Source: Mumia xiangluensis | GTDB taxonomy: Bacteria > Actinomycetota > Actinomycetes > Propionibacteriales > Nocardioidaceae | Direction of reading: 5' to 3' | Assembly (NCBI RefSeq): GCF_010994095.1 | Contig: NZ_WJYO01000001.1 | Coordinates: 930,001 to 994,000, forward strand | Length of the DNA: 64,000 nucleotides | Part shown: one piece after another, positions 23,893-60,668 of the stretch | How positions within the stretch are numbered: the first letter of the stretch is position 1 | Layout of the letters: every line of letters begins with the position of its first letter | The notes under the pieces: generated by a model | Told to the model about the DNA's origin: nothing | The model's input: the letters and a program-made list of their open reading frames with translations, nothing else | Database searches by the model: none | Position numbers and translations under genes: made by a program

Positions 23893-24704
23893 CGATGCGC
23901 GTGCCGATGCCGCCGTCGATCGCCGAGCACGCCGGTCGGCAGGCTGAGGCGTCGACGCCGCGCGATGCTGCGACGGTCGTGCTCCTGCGCGACGGCGCCG
24001 AGGGCGTCGAAGCGTATCTCCTGCGGCGGCAGCGGTCGATGGCGTTCGCGCCCGGCATGTACGTCTTCCCCGGCGGTGGCGTGGATCCTCGCGACTCCGA
24101 CACCGACGTCGCGTGGGCGGGACCGGCACCGCAGGAGTGGGCCGACAGGTGGGGCTGCTCGACCGACGTGGCTCGTGCACTGGTGTGCGCGGCGGTGCGC
24201 GAGACGTACGAGGAGTCCGGCGTCCTGCTCGCCGGCCCCGACGCCGAGACGGTCGTCGGCGACACCAGCGGCGCTGACTGGCAGGCCGACCGCCTGGCGC
24301 TGGAGGCGCACACGCTCGCGTTCTCCGACTTCCTGCGCCGTCGGTCCCTCGTGCTGCGTACCGACCTGCTCGGCGCGTGGGCCCACTGGATCACGCCCGG
24401 CTTCGAGCCGCGGCGCTTCGACACCCGGTTCTTCGTCGCCGTGCTGCCGCGGGGACAGCGGGTCGGCCACCTCGCCTCCGAGGCGGACCACGCCTCGTGG
24501 ATGCCTTTGAGCGCCGCGCTCGCGTCCGTGGACGCCGGCGACATGGCGATGCTGCCTCCGACATCGGTCACGTGCCGCGAGCTGGCGGCGCTCCCGTCGG
24601 CGGCCTCCGCGCTCGAGGTGGCGCCGACACGGCGTATCGTGCCGGTCGAGCCCCGGCTGGTCGAGGTCGACGGCACCTACTACCTGGAGACGGAGCTGCC
24701 GTGA
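23889..24704 (+). CDS. NUDIX hydrolase
   Basis: The protein has 271 residues. The NUDIX box is split by an insertion: GGGVDPRDSD is followed about 35 residues later by RETYEESGVLL, which supplies the metal-binding REx2EE-type residues. Such long-insert forms occur among actinobacterial NUDIX19-like proteins. The substrate is unknown. The ATG overlaps the RidA stop (ATGA) and its own stop overlaps the next GTG. Confidence 0.85.
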   Translation: MTMRVPMPPSIAEHAGRQAEASTPRDAATVVLLRDGAEGVEAYLLRRQRSMAFAPGMYVFPGGGVDPRDSDTDVAWAGPAPQEWADRWGCSTDVARALVCAAVRETYEESGVLLAGPDAETVVGDTSGADWQADRLALEAHTLAFSDFLRRRSLVLRTDLLGAWAHWITPGFEPRRFDTRFFVAVLPRGQRVGHLASEADHASWMPLSAALASVDAGDMAMLPPTSVTCRELAALPSAASALEVAPTRRIVPVEPRLVEVDGTYYLETELP

Positions 24705-25501
24705 CGGAACGGTTCGACGGTGGGGTCGTCAGCGAGTGGGCCAGCTGCGTCCGCGAGGACAACCCGGGGCACATGACGCTCGACGGGACCAACACGTGGA
24801 TCCTGCGGGCACCGGACGAGCAGGGGCGCGCGTCCGGAGCACGCTCGATCGTGGTCGACCCGGGTGAGCTCGACGAGCCCCACCTGCGTCGCGTGCTCGA
24901 GATGGCCGCGCCCGTGGCGGTCGTGCTGCTGACGCATCGCCACCACGACCACACCGAGGGTGCCGAGCGGTTCGCCGAGCTCGCGGCTGCCCCCGTACGC
25001 GCGGTCGACCCGGCACTGTGCCTCGACGCGGACCCGCTGGTCGACGGCGAGACGATCGAGGTCGACGGCGTCCGGCTCGAGGTGCTGGCGTCGCCGGGAC
25101 ACACCACCGACTCGGTCTCGTTCCTGCTCCGCGACGACGCCGCGCTGCTGTCGGGTGACACGGTCTTGGGGCGCGGGACGACGGTCGTCGCGCATCCCGA
25201 CGGCGCGCTCGGCCCGTACCTCGACTCCCTGCGCACGCTGCGTGCGGCGGTCGACTCGGTCGAGGGCACCGTGCGGCTGTATCCGGGGCACGGACCGGTC
25301 CTGGCGGATGCTGGGGCCGTCATCGACGGCTACCTCGCGCACCGTGAGGAGCGCCTGACCCAGGTGCGCGAGGCGCTGGACGCCGGCGCGGAGTCGGCCG
25401 ACGACGTCGTACGCACCGTGTATGCGGACGTGGATCCGATCCTGTGGCCGGCCGCGACCCTGTCGGTGCGGGCGCAGCTCGAGTACCTCCGCACCACCTG
25501 A
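24701..25501 (+). CDS. Metallo-beta-lactamase-fold hydrolase
   Basis: The protein has 266 residues with the metal-binding motif THRHHDH, then SPGHTTDS, SGD and PGHGP, the order of glyoxalase-II/LACTB2-type hydrolases. The C-terminal helical part fits LACTB2-like proteins, some of which are RNases or thioester hydrolases. It corresponds to Rv3677c, normally next to crp; here a repeat-flanked cassette lies between. Confidence 0.88.
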   Translation: MTERFDGGVVSEWASCVREDNPGHMTLDGTNTWILRAPDEQGRASGARSIVVDPGELDEPHLRRVLEMAAPVAVVLLTHRHHDHTEGAERFAELAAAPVRAVDPALCLDADPLVDGETIEVDGVRLEVLASPGHTTDSVSFLLRDDAALLSGDTVLGRGTTVVAHPDGALGPYLDSLRTLRAAVDSVEGTVRLYPGHGPVLADAGAVIDGYLAHREERLTQVREALDAGAESADDVVRTVYADVDPILWPAATLSVRAQLEYLRTT

Positions 25502-25503
25502 CC

Positions 25504-25629
25504 GCTCGCGAGTCACCCTTCCCCGCTCGCGAGTCACCCTTCCCCGCTCGCGAGTCACCGTTCCGTGCCCGCGAGTCACCCTTCCCCGCTCGCGAGTCAC
25601 CGTTCCGTGCCCGCGAGTCACCATGTCCG
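25504..25629 (-). repeat. 21-bp tandem array, left flank of the nuclease cassette
   Basis: Six head-to-tail 21-bp units start at 25504, 25525, 25546, 25567, 25588 and 25609. Each holds GCTCGCGAGTCAC or GCCCGCGAGTCAC followed by CTTCCCC or GTTCCGT. The array begins 2 nt after the metallo-beta-lactamase stop, and the sixth unit contains the stop codon of the nuclease-like gene. On the minus strand each unit reads GTGACTCGCGAGC or GTGACTCGCGGGC, the same core as the array at 26612 in opposite orientation. Confidence 0.9.
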
Positions 25630-26535
25630 CGGGCGTGGTGACATGCCGAGCAGCGTGCCGAGCTCGTACTCGAACGCGGGATCGGTCCCGAAGATGCGTT
25701 CGCGCGTGCCGATCACGAAGCGCCAGCCGTACCGGCGCTCGAAGTAGCCGCGCCGCTCGCTGTCGTGATCCGTGTCGTCGTCGGTCGTGTGGTGCTCGCG
25801 ACCGTCGTACTCGCTCGCGATCAGCAAGTGGCGGTATCCGAGGTCGAAGTAGCGGTCGCGGCCCCACTCGTCGAGCACATGGATCTGTGTCTTCGGACGC
25901 GGGAAGCCGGCGTCGATCACCCGCAGCCTCTGCCACGACTCTCCCGGCGACGCTGCTCCCGGATCGATCAGGCCGACGAGTTCTCGGGCCTGCGGTGCTC
26001 CACGGAACCCGTTGAGCGCCATCACGTAGTCGTACAGGTGGGCCGGCTCGTACAACTCCGCTCGCAGCATCCCGTCGGCGGCAGCGAGTGCGTACGGTCG
26101 CCACATCCTGCGCAGCAGGTCCGAGGCCGTACGGACCGGCGTCGTGACGAGGATCCCCTCGAACTCGGTGACGTCCGTGTCCGGGAGGATCGCCTGGCGA
26201 CAGGAGACGCCCGGGGCTCGCACGCGACTCTGCCCGTGGGGCACGACCAGCGTCGGTGTCAGGAGGTGGCGATCGCTGGGCCGGAAGGAGTCGACTCCCC
26301 ACAGCCAGGAGGCGAAGCAGTCACTGACGATCGCGTGCGGCGGGGTGACGAGGCGTACGGCGCGGAGCCGGAGGATCCGGGTGTCAGGGACGGCCGCGTC
26401 AACGTACACGTGCTTGAAGACCGGTCGAACACGCTTCTCGTTGATCGCTCGACGCAACGCGTGATCGCTCGAGAAGCCGACCGCGGCGTAGTCACGGCTG
26501 AAGAAGGGGCGTCCTTCGTTGAGGGGATCGGGCAT
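25618..26535 (-). CDS. DUF559-like endonuclease-fold protein with AbiEi-like N-terminus
   Basis: The protein has 305 residues. The N-terminal half looks like a winged-helix/AbiEi-type region (FSSDHALRRAINEKRVRPVF, then VTTPVRTASDLLRR). The C-terminal part has the Vsr/DUF559-like nuclease pattern EYDGREHH, then D...R..Y and RYGWRFV. Such proteins are common orphan genes in actinobacteria with no known activity. It is bracketed by inverted 21-bp repeat arrays and inserted between two genes that are neighbours elsewhere. The start ATG 26535 follows GATGGGCGG; a longer reading frame upstream is only the repeat array translated. Confidence 0.7.
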   Translation of the reverse strand: MPDPLNEGRPFFSRDYAAVGFSSDHALRRAINEKRVRPVFKHVYVDAAVPDTRILRLRAVRLVTPPHAIVSDCFASWLWGVDSFRPSDRHLLTPTLVVPHGQSRVRAPGVSCRQAILPDTDVTEFEGILVTTPVRTASDLLRRMWRPYALAAADGMLRAELYEPAHLYDYVMALNGFRGAPQARELVGLIDPGAASPGESWQRLRVIDAGFPRPKTQIHVLDEWGRDRYFDLGYRHLLIASEYDGREHHTTDDDTDHDSERRGYFERRYGWRFVIGTRERIFGTDPAFEYELGTLLGMSPRPRTW

Positions 26536-26611
26536 CCGCCCATCGAAGCGTCGACGCCACCATCGCCGTGCGCGCCGTCCACAGGGACGCCGGAGGTTCC
26601 CGCATCCACAG

Positions 26612-26716
26612 GCCGCGACTCGCGGGGCGGGAGCCGCGACTCGCGGGGCGGGGGCCGCGACTCGCGAGGCGGGAGCGGTGACTCGCGAGGCGGGAGCGGT
26701 GACTCGCGAGCGGGAA
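26612..26716 (+). repeat. 21-bp tandem array, right flank of the nuclease cassette
   Basis: Five 21-bp units start at 26612, 26633, 26654, 26675 and 26696. They share GCCGCGACTCGCGGGGCGGG or GCGGTGACTCGCGAGGCGGG and become closer to the left-array core toward crp. They read in the opposite direction to the array at 25504, so the arrays are inverted relative to each other. The array ends 7 nt before the crp stop. Confidence 0.9.
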
Positions 26717-26723
26717 AGGGGGG

Positions 26724-27401
26724 CTAGCGGGCGCGCTTGGAGAGGCGGTCGGGCTCGATGATGACGACCGAGCGCGGCTCGAGGCGGAGCCAACCGCGCA
26801 TCGCGAAGTCGGCGAGCGCCTTGTTGACGGTCTCGCGGGAGGCGCCGACCAGCTGGGCGAGCTCCTCCTGAGTGAGGTCGTGGTGCACGTGGATGCCGTC
26901 GTCAGCCTTGCGGCCGAAGCGCTGCGACAGGTCGATCAGCGCCTTCGCGACGCGGCCCGGGACGTCGGAGAAGACGAGGTCGGCGACGACGTCGTTGGTG
27001 CGACGCAGACGCGACGCGAGCTGGCCGAGGAGGGCCCGCGAGACGTTGGGGTGGTCGTTGAGCCACTTGGTGAGGTCGTCGTGGCTCAGGCTCGTGAGCT
27101 CCGAGTCGGTCACCGCGGTCGCGGTCGCCGAGCGCGGGCCCGGGTCGAACAGTGAGAGCTCACCGAACATCTGGCCGGGGCCGAGGATCGCGAGGAGGTT
27201 CTCACGGCCGTCAGCCGAGCTGCGCCCGAGCTTGATCTTGCCGTCGGCGACGATGTAGAGCTGGTCGCCTTCGTCGCCCTCGTGGAACAGCACGTCTCCG
27301 CGCCGCAGGCGCGTCGACGACATCTGCGAGCCGAGCGACTCGGCAGCCTCGTCGTCGAGGCCCGAGAAGAGCGGTGCCTGCCGAAGTACGTCGTTGTCCA
27401 C
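26724..27401 (-). CDS. crp: CRP/FNR-family global regulator
   Basis: The protein has 225 residues, the same length as M. tuberculosis CRP (Rv3676). It has the cyclic-nucleotide-binding domain (FGELSLFDPGPRSAT, the cAMP-pocket signature) and a C-terminal winged helix with LTQEELAQLVGASRETVNKALADF. GTG 27401 follows AAGGAG. It binds TGTGA-N6-TCACA-type sites; two good matches in this window are at 35144 and 53542. It diverges from nth, as in mycobacteria. Confidence 0.95.
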   Translation of the reverse strand: MDNDVLRQAPLFSGLDDEAAESLGSQMSSTRLRRGDVLFHEGDEGDQLYIVADGKIKLGRSSADGRENLLAILGPGQMFGELSLFDPGPRSATATAVTDSELTSLSHDDLTKWLNDHPNVSRALLGQLASRLRRTNDVVADLVFSDVPGRVAKALIDLSQRFGRKADDGIHVHHDLTQEELAQLVGASRETVNKALADFAMRGWLRLEPRSVVIIEPDRLSKRAR

Positions 27402-27512
27402 GGGTTCTCCTTGACCAAAGAAATAGTCACGCACGTCCAGTGTCCCTCATCCGGCCAACTCGGCGCCACCGACAGCGCCCTGCGTGTCCCCCGCGCCCCG
27501 TACGCTGGCTGC

Positions 27513-35630: not shown

Positions 35631-35776
35631 CTGGTTGAGCGAGCGGAGCCGACCCTCCGCTGGTTGAGCGAGCCGAGCCGACCCTCCGCTGGTTGAGCGA
35701 GCGGAGCCGACCCTCCGCTGGTTGAGCGAGCCGAGCCGACCCTCCGCTGGTTGAGCGAGCGGAGCGAGTCGAAACC
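35631..35776. repeat. Five tandem 29-bp units of the interspersed repeat
   Basis: Units start at 35631, 35660, 35689, 35718 and 35747. Each begins CTGGTTGAGCGAGC, and units 1-4 continue to GACCCTCCG, with base 15 alternating G, C, G, C, G along the array. The last unit instead ends GAGTCGAAACC, like the full copy at 18131. The array fills the gap between the convergent 35268 gene and bioQ, touching the bioQ stop. Confidence 0.9.
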
Positions 35777-57917: not shown

Positions 57918-60668
57918 GTGACCTCTCTTGTCATCGTCGAGTCGCCGAAGAAGATCGCTCAGATCGCCGGCTATCTCGGCAAGGGCTACGTCGTCGAGGC
58001 GTCGTTCGGGCACGTCCGCGACCTGCCCAACGGGGCGGCGGAGGTGCCCGCGAAGTACAAGGGGCAGCCGTGGGCGCGGCTCGGTGTGGACGTCGAGGGC
58101 AGCTTTGACCCGGTGTACGTCGTGCCGGCGGACAAGAAGGCACAGATCACCAAGCTCAAGAAGCTCCTCAAAGAGTCTGATGAGCTCATCCTCGCGACGG
58201 ATGAGGACCGCGAGGGCGAGGCCATCGCGTGGCACCTCGTCGACGAGCTGAAGCCGAAGGTCCCGGTCCGCCGGATGACGTTCAACGAGATCACCCCTCA
58301 GGCCATCGCCCACGCCATCGAGAACACCCGCGACATCAACACCGACCTCGTCGACGCCCAGGAGACGCGCCGGATCCTCGACCGCCTGTACGGCTACGAG
58401 GTCAGCCCGGTCCTGTGGAAGAAGGTCATGTCGGGCCTCTCGGCCGGGCGTGTCCAGTCCGTCGCGACGCGGATGGTCGTCGAGCGGGAGTGGGAGCGCA
58501 TCGCGTTCCGCGCCGCCTCGTACTGGGACCTCGACGCCCGCTTCGACGCCGGCGCCGGCAAGGATCCGCGGGTCTTCCCGGCACGGCTGCTCTCGGTGGC
58601 CGGTGCCCGCGTCGCACAGGGCCGTGACTTCAGCTCCGAAGGCGAGCTCACCAGCAACGACCCCACGGCCGTCGTTCACCTCGACGAGGCACGCGCCGCT
58701 GCCCTCGCCGAGGGGCTGCGCGAGCAGACCTTCACCGTGCAGTCGGTCGAGTCGAAGCCCTACACGCGCCGTCCGTACGCCCCCTTCCGCACGGTCACGA
58801 TGCAGCAGGAGGCCGGTCGCAAGCTCGGCTGGGGCGCGCAGCGTGCGATGCAGGTCGCGCAGCGCCTGTACGAGGGCGGCTACATCACCTACATGCGTAC
58901 GGACTCGACGACGCTGTCGCAGACGGCGCTGGACGCCGCACGGGCGCAGGTCCGCGAGCTGTACGGCCCGGACTACCTGCCGGACGCCCCGCGGACGTAC
59001 GCGTCGAAGGTGAAGAACGCGCAGGAGGCGCACGAGGCGATCCGCCCGGCCGGCGAGTCGTTCCGTACGCCGGCGGAGACCGGGCTGTCCGGCGACGAGT
59101 TCCGCCTGTACGAGCTGATCTGGATGCGCACGATGGCATCGCAGATGAAGGACGCCAAGGGCAACACCGTCACAGTCCGCATCGGAGCCACTGCGACCTC
59201 CGGCGAGGAGTGCGTGTTCACCTCCTCGGGGCGCACGATCACGTTCTACGGGTTCCTGAAGGCGTACGTCGAGGGTGCTGACGACCCCGAGGCGGACTCC
59301 GACGACAAGCAGACCCGGCTCCCCGACGTGGCCGAGGGCGACTCGGTGACCGTGGACGCGCTCGACGCATCCGGTCACACCACGAAGCCCCCGGCGCGGT
59401 TCACGGAGCAGACGCTGATCGGCGAGCTCGAGAAGCGCGAGATCGGCCGCCCGTCGACGTACGCCTCGATCATCCAGACCATCCTGAACCGCGGTTACGT
59501 CTACAAGAAGGGGACCGCGCTGGTCCCCTCGTGGGTGGCGTTCTCGACCGTGCGGCTGATGGTGCGGCACTTCGAGCGACTCGTCGACTACGACTTCACG
59601 GCGATGATGGAGGACGTCCTCGACGAGGTCGCGGCGGGGCGCGAGGAGCGGTCGAGCGTCCTGCACGGCTTCTACTACGGGGGCAAGGACGAGGACACCG
59701 GCCTCAAGAAGCTGGTCGACGGCCTCGGGGACATCGACGCGCGCGAGCTCTCGACCTTCGAGCTCGGGGACGGTGGCGAGGGCATCGCGCTGCGCGTCGG
59801 ACGGTACGGTCCATACCTCGAGGGACCCGACGCCGACGGCGTGCTCCAGCGGGCCAACGTCCCCGACGACCTGCCGCCGGACGAGCTGACGCTCGACAAG
59901 GCCAAGGAGCTCCTTGCGAACCCGGCCGGTCAGGACCGCGAGCTCGGCACCGACCCGACCACGGGTCGCGTCGTCGTCGCGAAGAACGGTCGCTTCGGGC
60001 CGTACGTGACCGAGGTGCTTCCCGAGGACGCCCCCAAGAAGGAGAAGCCTCGTACGGGGTCGCTCCTCAAGTCGATGGACCTCGACTCGGTGACGATCGA
60101 CGACGCCGTCAAGCTCCTCGCGCTCCCGCGCGTGGTCGGCGCCGACCCCGAGACCGGCGACGAGATCACGGCCCAGAACGGCCGCTACGGGCCGTACCTC
60201 AAGAAGGGCACCGACTCGCGTTCTCTCGAGACCGAGGAGCAGATCTTCGACATCACGCTGCCCGAGGCACTCGCGATCTACGCGCAGCCGAAGCAGCGCG
60301 GTCGTCGCGCGGCCGCCGCCCCGCTCAAGGAGCTCGGCGAGGATCCGGAGTCCAAGAAGCCGGTCGTCGTGAAGGACGGGCGCTTCGGTCCGTACGTCAC
60401 GGACGGCGAGGTCAACGCGACGTTGCGCAAGGGCGACGAGGTCGACACGATCACGCTCGCGCGGGCGGCGGAGCTGCTCGCGGAGAAGCGCGCCAAGGGG
60501 CCGGTCAAGAAGACGGCCCGCAAGGCGCCCGCCAAGAAGGCGACCGCGAAGAAGGCGACGGCGAAGAAGGCTGCAGCGAAGAAGACCGCAGCGAAGAAGA
60601 CCGCCACGAAGACCGCGGCGAAGAAGACCGCCACGAAGAAGACCGCGGCTTCGACGCCGGAGTCCTGA
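57918..60668 (+). CDS. topA: DNA topoisomerase I
   Basis: The protein has 916 residues and relaxes negative supercoils. The TOPRIM domain begins LVIVESPKK; the acidic triad is in ATDEDREGEA, and the active-site Tyr325 is in ITYMRTDS. As in other Actinobacteria there are no zinc fingers: the C-terminus has several basic repeat domains (NGRFGPYVT and NGRYGPYLK) and ends in about 45 residues of Lys, Ala and Thr (KKATAKKATAKKAAAKK type). GTG 57918 is preceded by AGGAG. Confidence 0.96.
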   Translation: MTSLVIVESPKKIAQIAGYLGKGYVVEASFGHVRDLPNGAAEVPAKYKGQPWARLGVDVEGSFDPVYVVPADKKAQITKLKKLLKESDELILATDEDREGEAIAWHLVDELKPKVPVRRMTFNEITPQAIAHAIENTRDINTDLVDAQETRRILDRLYGYEVSPVLWKKVMSGLSAGRVQSVATRMVVEREWERIAFRAASYWDLDARFDAGAGKDPRVFPARLLSVAGARVAQGRDFSSEGELTSNDPTAVVHLDEARAAALAEGLREQTFTVQSVESKPYTRRPYAPFRTVTMQQEAGRKLGWGAQRAMQVAQRLYEGGYITYMRTDSTTLSQTALDAARAQVRELYGPDYLPDAPRTYASKVKNAQEAHEAIRPAGESFRTPAETGLSGDEFRLYELIWMRTMASQMKDAKGNTVTVRIGATATSGEECVFTSSGRTITFYGFLKAYVEGADDPEADSDDKQTRLPDVAEGDSVTVDALDASGHTTKPPARFTEQTLIGELEKREIGRPSTYASIIQTILNRGYVYKKGTALVPSWVAFSTVRLMVRHFERLVDYDFTAMMEDVLDEVAAGREERSSVLHGFYYGGKDEDTGLKKLVDGLGDIDARELSTFELGDGGEGIALRVGRYGPYLEGPDADGVLQRANVPDDLPPDELTLDKAKELLANPAGQDRELGTDPTTGRVVVAKNGRFGPYVTEVLPEDAPKKEKPRTGSLLKSMDLDSVTIDDAVKLLALPRVVGADPETGDEITAQNGRYGPYLKKGTDSRSLETEEQIFDITLPEALAIYAQPKQRGRRAAAAPLKELGEDPESKKPVVVKDGRFGPYVTDGEVNATLRKGDEVDTITLARAAELLAEKRAKGPVKKTARKAPAKKATAKKATAKKAAAKKTAAKKTATKTAAKKTATKKTAASTPES

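Follow-up and report, generated by a model that had tools for sequence, protein, structure and literature searches.

In the window, by which we mean the whole 64-kb stretch of DNA analysed here, a single nuclease-like gene is framed by two arrays of 21-bp units and lies between a metallo-beta-lactamase-fold (MBL) gene and the gene of a Crp-family regulator (crp) (Table 1). The window belongs to the 4.6-Mb genome of a member of Mumia (Nocardioidaceae), designated G000. The preliminary description of this DNA had reported inverted arrays of six units on the left and five on the right that enclose one gene between MBL and crp, and this layout was confirmed. The left array begins directly after the MBL stop codon, which ends at 25501, and the right array stops 8 nt before the crp stop codon (starting at 26724, counted on the + strand). 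The stop codon of the nuclease gene itself (25618-25620) falls within the sixth left unit (25610-25621).

Table 1. Genes and repeat arrays of the cassette, with positions in the window
Feature	Position	Strand	Remarks
MBL-fold gene, left neighbour	24377..25501	+	longest ORF; Pfam; convergent with crp
Left array, six 21-bp units	25502..25622	-	downstream of nuclease gene; core GTGACTCGCGAG or GTGACTCGCGGG on - strand
Nuclease gene, 305 aa	25618..26535	-	AbiEi-like part (~1-190) and Vsr/EDxHD-like nuclease part (~195-300)
Right array, five 21-bp units	26612..26715	+	faces left array; upstream of nuclease start
crp, right neighbour	26724..27434	-	Pfam

The 12-mer cores of the left array start at 25505, 25526, 25547, 25568, 25589 and 25610, a spacing of 21 bp, and read CTCGCGAGTCAC four times and CCCGCGAGTCAC twice. 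Those of the right array, in the opposite sense, start at 26615, 26636, 26657, 26678 and 26699 and read GTGACTCGCGAG (two units), GCGACTCGCGAG (one) and GCGACTCGCGGG (two). The shared core reported earlier thus holds exactly for 6 of the 11 units, and the other five deviate from it. TRF scores were 186 and 214 for the left array (two periods) and 145 for the right one, and all nine matches to the core at no more than one mismatch within the window were inside the two arrays. Two further repeats occur in the window. One is an array of 4.7 copies of a 29-bp unit with GGTTGAGCGAGC that fills a convergent gap at 35631-35765; the same gap is empty of an array in the Mumia genomes G005 and G003 and holds a shorter version in G004. 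The other (60522-60649) has units like AAGGCGACCGCGAAG and is possibly a Lys/Ala-rich coding tail.

The encoded protein matched a single Pfam family, MTES_1575 (PF18741), a nuclease domain described as being of the Vsr type (PMC3710099), and this match (E 0.009) was too weak to pass the cut-off. Among 12 members of the subfamily defined below, MTES_1575 was matched by eight and AbiEi_4 by four (E≤0.01). The label "DUF559-like" given in the preliminary description has to be qualified: the window protein has no DUF559 match, and two of its eight paralogs (L011 and L012) match DUF559 above the cut-off, together with MTES_1575. PADLOC models of AbiEi matched approximately residues 19-155 with E values of 1.6e-9 and weaker. 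An AlphaFold2 model built from 40 aligned members (pLDDT 94.6, pTM 0.90) retrieved, in Foldseek searches, the AbiEi antitoxin 6y8q (E 4e-6) and, over ~100 residues, the catalytic domain of I-Bth0305I (3r3p; TM 0.69 by target length, rmsd 3.5, with a weak E of 0.24); E. coli Vsr (1vsr) reached a TM of 0.41 by target length. The nuclease-fold match could be placed in the C-terminal part, since it agrees with a sequence profile match to 3r3p at positions 233-279, itself weak (E 0.82). Residues E199, D231, E242, D244, D258 and R261 were invariant, and H249 was conserved in at least 90%, of 40 sequences with identities down to 35%. Given this conservation of catalytic residues, the nuclease part is probably active.

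In a family-wide search, relatives were found in 202 of 294 genomes at E 1e-30. Within them, a full-length subfamily (identity of at least 42%, E 2e-64 or better) was distinct from the remainder (E 1e-50 and weaker). The subfamily gene was present in five of the six Mumia genomes; it also occupies the MBL-crp site in G003, G004 and G005, and the G001 copy and a second G003 copy are located elsewhere. Facing units occur on both sides of the gene in Mumia, and their sequence varies by genome. For example, the unit is GTGACTCGCGAG in the window genome, GTGACCCGCGAG in G005 and GTGACCCGGG in G004, and 22-bp units were found at the G001 gene (GCGACTCGCGAG) and at the second G003 copy (GTCTCTCGCGAG). 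Some sides are short, with one or two units, such as the downstream side in G004 and the first G003 copy. That first copy (Mumia quercus, L023/L024, C1:148802-149664, at MBL-crp) is split over two reading frames and its flanking arrays are short; the second nuclease copy of this genome, near relA, is whole.

The association between gene and repeats was seen throughout the subfamily. At 37 of 39 loci the upstream flank matched the reverse complement of the downstream flank, compared with 1 of 208 control genes (2 of 209 before removal of an ORF that overlaps the nuclease gene L149), which bears out the earlier claim that repeats and nuclease belong together. The two loci that fell short were L063 (G127), which had no downstream match, and L244. 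The set of 39 consisted of 28 named loci (L084, L104 and L107 left out) and 11 others, other unnamed loci being excluded. In the same control comparison, all 29 subfamily loci reached a mark of 16, which had been set after a survey of the 74 named loci, out of 80, that had sufficient flank. At 28 of the 37 matched loci, no other locus offered a flank that fitted better than the locus's own opposite flank. The best period was 21 or 22 bp, or double, in 35/39 upstream and 35/39 downstream flanks (score of at least 15 in 34 and 27, respectively), and in 12/79 upstream and 10/79 downstream flanks of control genes, none of which scored 15 or more. This period equals two helical turns. Chance was rejected on the control tests of flank match and period. 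The units differ sharply from gene to gene, and their similarity tracks that of the proteins (Mantel rho 0.29 by a cross left/right flank measure, 0 of 2000 permutations); ordinary tandem-repeat noise was rejected, because the units are matched across the gene and vary together with it.

The same repeats are dispersed in the genome of their nuclease. We compared repeats and genomes in a matrix of 26 chosen genomes, 21 with and five without the subfamily gene. CTGACGCGTGGGTTG had 33, 10 and 6 matches in G131, G144 and G127, the three genomes whose nuclease carries it, and none in the other 23. Similarly, CGAGTCACGTACGG was found 25 times in G064 and 19 times in G125, both of which carry it at the nuclease, once in G013 and in none of the other 23. 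GTGACCCGCGAG, a shorter and less specific word, had 63 matches in G005 and 0-14 in other genomes. In Mumia, a two-unit 21-bp pattern exceeded its reversed control in G000 (43 vs 9), G004 (37 vs 4) and G005 (113 vs 5). No excess was seen in G001 (8 vs 8) or G003 (5 vs 7), where the units are 22 bp apart, so this pattern would miss their repeats. G002, which has no subfamily nuclease at E 1e-20, nevertheless had 17 matches against 4 in the control; pairs of the GTGACTCGCG type (e.g., C1:1201133 and C1:4319596) are above control there and are possibly relics of a lost gene.

In the window genome, the exact core occurs nine times in total, six at the cassette and three elsewhere. The places away from the cassette are two facing array pairs (L007 and L008), which have no nuclease gene, and a stretch with two units (L009). 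At the last one (1330-1540 of L009), the window's repeat forms a short array that stands alone and adjoins a dispersed ACGAAGCCAC element, which also flanks the paralog L015, so that two repeat families meet in one stretch. We further fetched 20 places from G131, G064 and G005, two of them being second nuclease genes that were chosen deliberately. All 18 other places were arrays that lack a nuclease gene, mostly facing (e.g., >>>>><<<<) and in a few cases one-sided. One facing array pair, L248, was tested for folding and had a very stable predicted hairpin (z -13.4). Facing arrays also bracket ordinary genes, including those for a carbon-nitrogen hydrolase (L235, 1018-2502), a cobalamin adenosyltransferase (L251, 1024-1751) and SelR/MsrB (L252, 1068-1638).

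Array sites favoured gaps between convergent genes (16 of 24 classed sites vs 91 of 389 control neighbouring gene pairs, P 8e-6). None of the 24 was divergent, and the remaining ones were co-directional (six and two). These sites were obtained by hand-collapsing 29 array clusters, 28 of them classed (18 convergent, 7 + 3 co-directional, 0 divergent), to 25 sites with 24 classed, the bracketed gene of L235 being counted once; gene orientations came from a crude gene caller based on a GC3 rule and contain some error. The subfamily gene itself occupied a convergent gap in 34 of the 41 rows that had both neighbours. Its most frequent site, between DUF349 and relA, accounted for 17 of 45 rows, one locus counted twice, and was shared by Mumia, Aeromicrobium and uncultured Nocardioidaceae; other recurrent sites were beside a liv-type binding protein (6/45) and between crp and MBL (4/45). 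Sites were named by Pfam on one example each, and other neighbours were grouped by similarity of called ORFs. Because different genera have the gene at the same sites, its place is inherited, and it is the unit that changes, jointly in the flanks and across the genome.

A comparison of G064 and G125, whose DNA is ~80-91% identical, showed how arrays change. Nine of nine and 10 of 11 dispersed array sites were common to both (the eleventh was not located), and unit numbers at common sites differed (e.g., 5+5 vs 3+2), suggesting that arrays turn over faster than sites. No recent array jump was seen between these two genomes. At greater distance, sites are no longer shared throughout. The single case of presence and absence seen for this repeat is the 3' end of dinB (a name assigned by eye), which has a facing pair in G005, three units in G004 and none in G000 and G003; the neighbours had changed too, so no exact insertion boundary could be drawn.

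We also examined the wider family. The window genome contains eight more distant relatives of the nuclease, the nearest being 30% identical (E 1e-12). Profile comparison connected six of these paralogs with the subfamily (E 1.6e-19 and 1.1e-22), and the other two were linked to it by E values of 1e-12 and 2e-11. Five of the eight had matching elements on both sides with scores above those of all 47 control genes, and L012, L013 and L018 had no clear matching flanks. L017 is flanked by a palindrome of 84-88 bp. The half-motif of this element (up to three mismatches) occurs 22 times in the window genome, where seven pairs have a spacing of exactly 61 bp, and the 25 other genomes have a single match between them. 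The arms of the palindrome covary: 13 copies gave 28 doubly changed pair cells, compared with a shuffled mean of 15.2 (0 of 500) and 3-9 in slid controls, a count that kinship among the copies can inflate. The L014 motif (up to one mismatch) occurs 32 times in the window genome and 0-4 times in each of the 25 others. Among 45 distant named relatives, matching flanks that reached the mark of 16 were found in 19, some of which barely passed (16-18), and were absent in 26; they were present in none of 11 relatives from Actinomadura and one of 10 from Kribbella. One of these units, CGTGATCATGGAC, lies beside the gene in G295 and G294, where it was found 65 and 43 times, respectively; ten other genomes had 0-5 copies. 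In addition, it occurs 98 times in G297, with many copies paired ~40 bp apart; the relative L118 of this genome is not flanked by CGTGATCATGGAC, and no relative was present in the ten stretches read there (L287-L296). Some of the Mycobacteriaceae relatives (L133, L145-L147, L151, L154, L158 and L159) have elements such as CGCGAAATATCATTCCGGG or CGTTGACTCTGCGCTGA that match between their two flanks.

The preliminary description had proposed a repeat-marked mobile or domesticated cassette. A mobile cassette that carries the gene is not supported, because the dispersed places are arrays that have no gene, in all 18 cases described above. Insertion sequences and transposons are recognised by several gene-carrying copies, and G000 has one subfamily gene, its only member; across genomes the subfamily is confined to a few recurrent sites (DUF349-relA, liv and crp-MBL). 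A search for empty MBL-crp junctions gave no clean case: gene searches detected no MBL-crp copy in G001 or G002. The suggestion that the repeats are recognition sites is plausible. The same description held that repeats occurring widely with no nuclease gene would speak against it. Taken literally, such repeats do occur, but mostly where the matching nuclease sits elsewhere in the same genome, and this is the pattern known from REP elements and their RAYT enzymes. Exceptions to this pattern, in which a matching nuclease was not found, were G002 and G297.

In REP/RAYT systems, palindromic repeats lie on both sides of the enzyme gene and are also scattered between other genes of its genome, and each enzyme has its own repeat family, is encoded by a single-copy gene and diversifies jointly with its repeats (PMC3116915, PMC3733652, PMC8266576). 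The present system (compared with REP/REPIN-RAYT, TnpA_REP or "REPtrons") is similar in having copies of the repeat on both sides of the gene at 37/39 loci and in the extragenic dispersal of the repeats in their own genome, although the window's own unit has only three exact cores elsewhere. In contrast, the protein combines an AbiEi-like part with a Vsr/EDxHD-like nuclease instead of an HUH Y1 transposase, the units share no common GTAG, the tetranucleotide found at the foot of REP repeats, as far as reading them shows (it is present in a few, e.g., L083), the main subfamily has tandem 21/22-bp units in facing arrays, and the hosts are Actinobacteria. A RAYT acting as a hidden mover was rejected, since Y1_Tnp of the RAYT type was found in 0 of the 26 genomes searched and in 5 of 14 controls, E. 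coli included. As the HUH enzyme, the defining feature of REP-RAYT, is missing, we do not file the system there.

The explanation that we consider probable is a two-part REP-like system, in which a gene for a winged helix-turn-helix (wHTH) protein with a Vsr-type nuclease has long been kept in place together with a private repeat family. Besides flanking the gene, the private repeats lie dispersed across its genome at the 3' ends of other genes, where they mostly form facing arrays. This explanation draws on the computed pairing, genome specificity and dispersal of the repeats, the absence of Y1 from the genomes searched and the conserved catalytic residues; from these we infer a nuclease that recognises its repeats and spreads them. 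The sites that AbiEi binds in its own promoter are inverted repeats of 23 bp (PMC7319586), and by analogy the 21/22-bp unit may be the natural site for one AbiEi-like molecule. The AbiEi-like part would bind one unit, and facing units would pair two molecules and so position the nuclease domain; I-Bth0305I is reported to dimerise on a target that is nearly 60 bp long (PMC3943268). The nuclease domain might then nick or cut the repeat or an extruded hairpin, and repair of the cut would copy, correct and occasionally relocate array DNA. Such repair could account for the fast change in unit number, for copies being kept alike and for a rare new array in a gene-end gap. Upstream copies of the repeat may also let the enzyme repress itself. 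Several observations count against the REP-like reading: the repeats of G002 and G297 for which a matching nuclease was not found, the lack of an excess of the 21-bp pattern in G001 and G003, the small number of exact cores away from the cassette in the window genome, paralogs and distant relatives with no visible repeats, the missing downstream match of L063, the stability of array sites between the close species G064 and G125, the lack of a clean insertion and the weak E value of the nuclease-fold match.

A broader possibility is a second, independently evolved REP kind formed by a large actinobacterial family of wHTH-Vsr nucleases, several per genome, each of which owns and spreads private repeats, short and either palindromic or tandem, that co-evolve with it. 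If so, the DNA specificity of an enzyme could be read from the sequence of its repeats. Our confidence in this extension had stood at an even chance and was lowered to slightly below it because G297 has many repeats with no matching gene found.

Several alternatives to the REP-like system were weighed. The repeats could be binding sites of the AbiEi-like protein that serve the host, in autoregulation, at transcription ends or in chromosome layout. The nuclease part would then guard or trim these sites, or be a leftover, and would have no role in their spread. The binding of AbiEi proteins to 23-bp inverted repeats in their own promoters (PMC7319586), the position of arrays at gene ends, the sites kept common between two close species and the very stable predicted hairpin of L248 (z -13.4) are all consistent with such a role. 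A host regulator, however, is expected to keep its motif, and here the units change between related species while the neighbours of the gene stay. The conserved nuclease residues, the absence of divergent (promoter) regions among the classed sites and the presence of nine related genes in the window genome, several with their own elements, also argue against host-serving sites, which we regard as unlikely.

A homing process, in which the nuclease cuts repeats and its own gene is copied in, the arrays being landing pads and the gene the selfish part, is suggested by the catalytic part, whose closest match in shape is the homing endonuclease I-Bth0305I, and by the occurrence of subfamily genes at several different array-bracketed sites, ordinary genes being bracketed too. 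The similarity extends to conserved E, D, H and D residues (motif name EDxHD from PMC3943268; the residue correspondence is our own reading), within the limits of a match to 3r3p whose shape agrees well and whose E value is weak, as noted above. But the arrays on both sides of the gene are intact, which would expose its locus to continued cutting by a homing enzyme, and arrays are numerous while genes are not. In addition, the second subfamily copies (L243 and L244) of G131 and G064 are flanked by different units. The gene also differs from those of homing endonucleases in that it is not in an intron or intein and is flanked by whole units of the presumed target rather than interrupting them. 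We find homing quite improbable.

The two remaining alternatives are both very hard to sustain. Enlargement of gene-end terminators by replication slippage, with a nuclease that merely settled in one of them, would fit the convergent location, the stable hairpin, the variation in unit number and the repeats of G002 and G297, for which no matching gene was found, but this coincidence was already disfavoured, as it leaves unexplained why dispersed arrays bear the unit of the genome's own nuclease and why flanks match at 37/39 loci. A role in defence or self-marking, in which the repeats tag the chromosome or store a nuclease that acts on invading DNA, is suggested by the PADLOC AbiEi matches and the Vsr-like nuclease part and is opposed by the gene standing alone at housekeeping sites, with no partner toxin among those immediate neighbours that were identified.

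The relation to type IV toxin-antitoxin systems (AbiEi antitoxin, Rv2827c) is one of fold (6y8q, E 4e-6; PADLOC, E 1.6e-9) and of site length, the known 23-bp inverted repeats being close to the 21/22-bp unit (PMC7319586). The present proteins differ in having an extra C-terminal nuclease part, which is similar in sequence to MTES_1575 and, in two paralogs, also to DUF559 (PF04480), and in having repeats also downstream and genome-wide. The AbiEii nucleotidyltransferase toxin was absent from the immediate neighbours (crp/MBL, relA/DUF349 and ABC transporter/binding protein, one example scanned per site), and a defence toxin-antitoxin pair was rejected, as no toxin was identified beside the gene.

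In the open PMC literature, we found no paper that links DUF559, MTES_1575 or AbiEi to dispersed repeats, in agreement with the earlier claim of an undescribed type. Repeat families that have a dedicated enzyme are a known arrangement; the enzyme class, the form of the repeats and the phylum are new, and the causal link is putative. In the parts of the literature examined, REP-type repeats with a known partner enzyme depend on a single family of enzymes, the HUH RAYTs. The nucleases described here are unrelated to RAYTs and occur in a different phylum, yet they have the same kind of relation to repeats that are likewise unrelated. Should this link be causal, enzyme-owned repeats arise by convergence, and this could explain many of the dispersed repeats of actinobacterial genomes. 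It would also provide a function for proteins labelled AbiEi-like, DUF559 or MTES_1575, and dozens of natural pairs of a compact nuclease and its adjoining probable DNA target.
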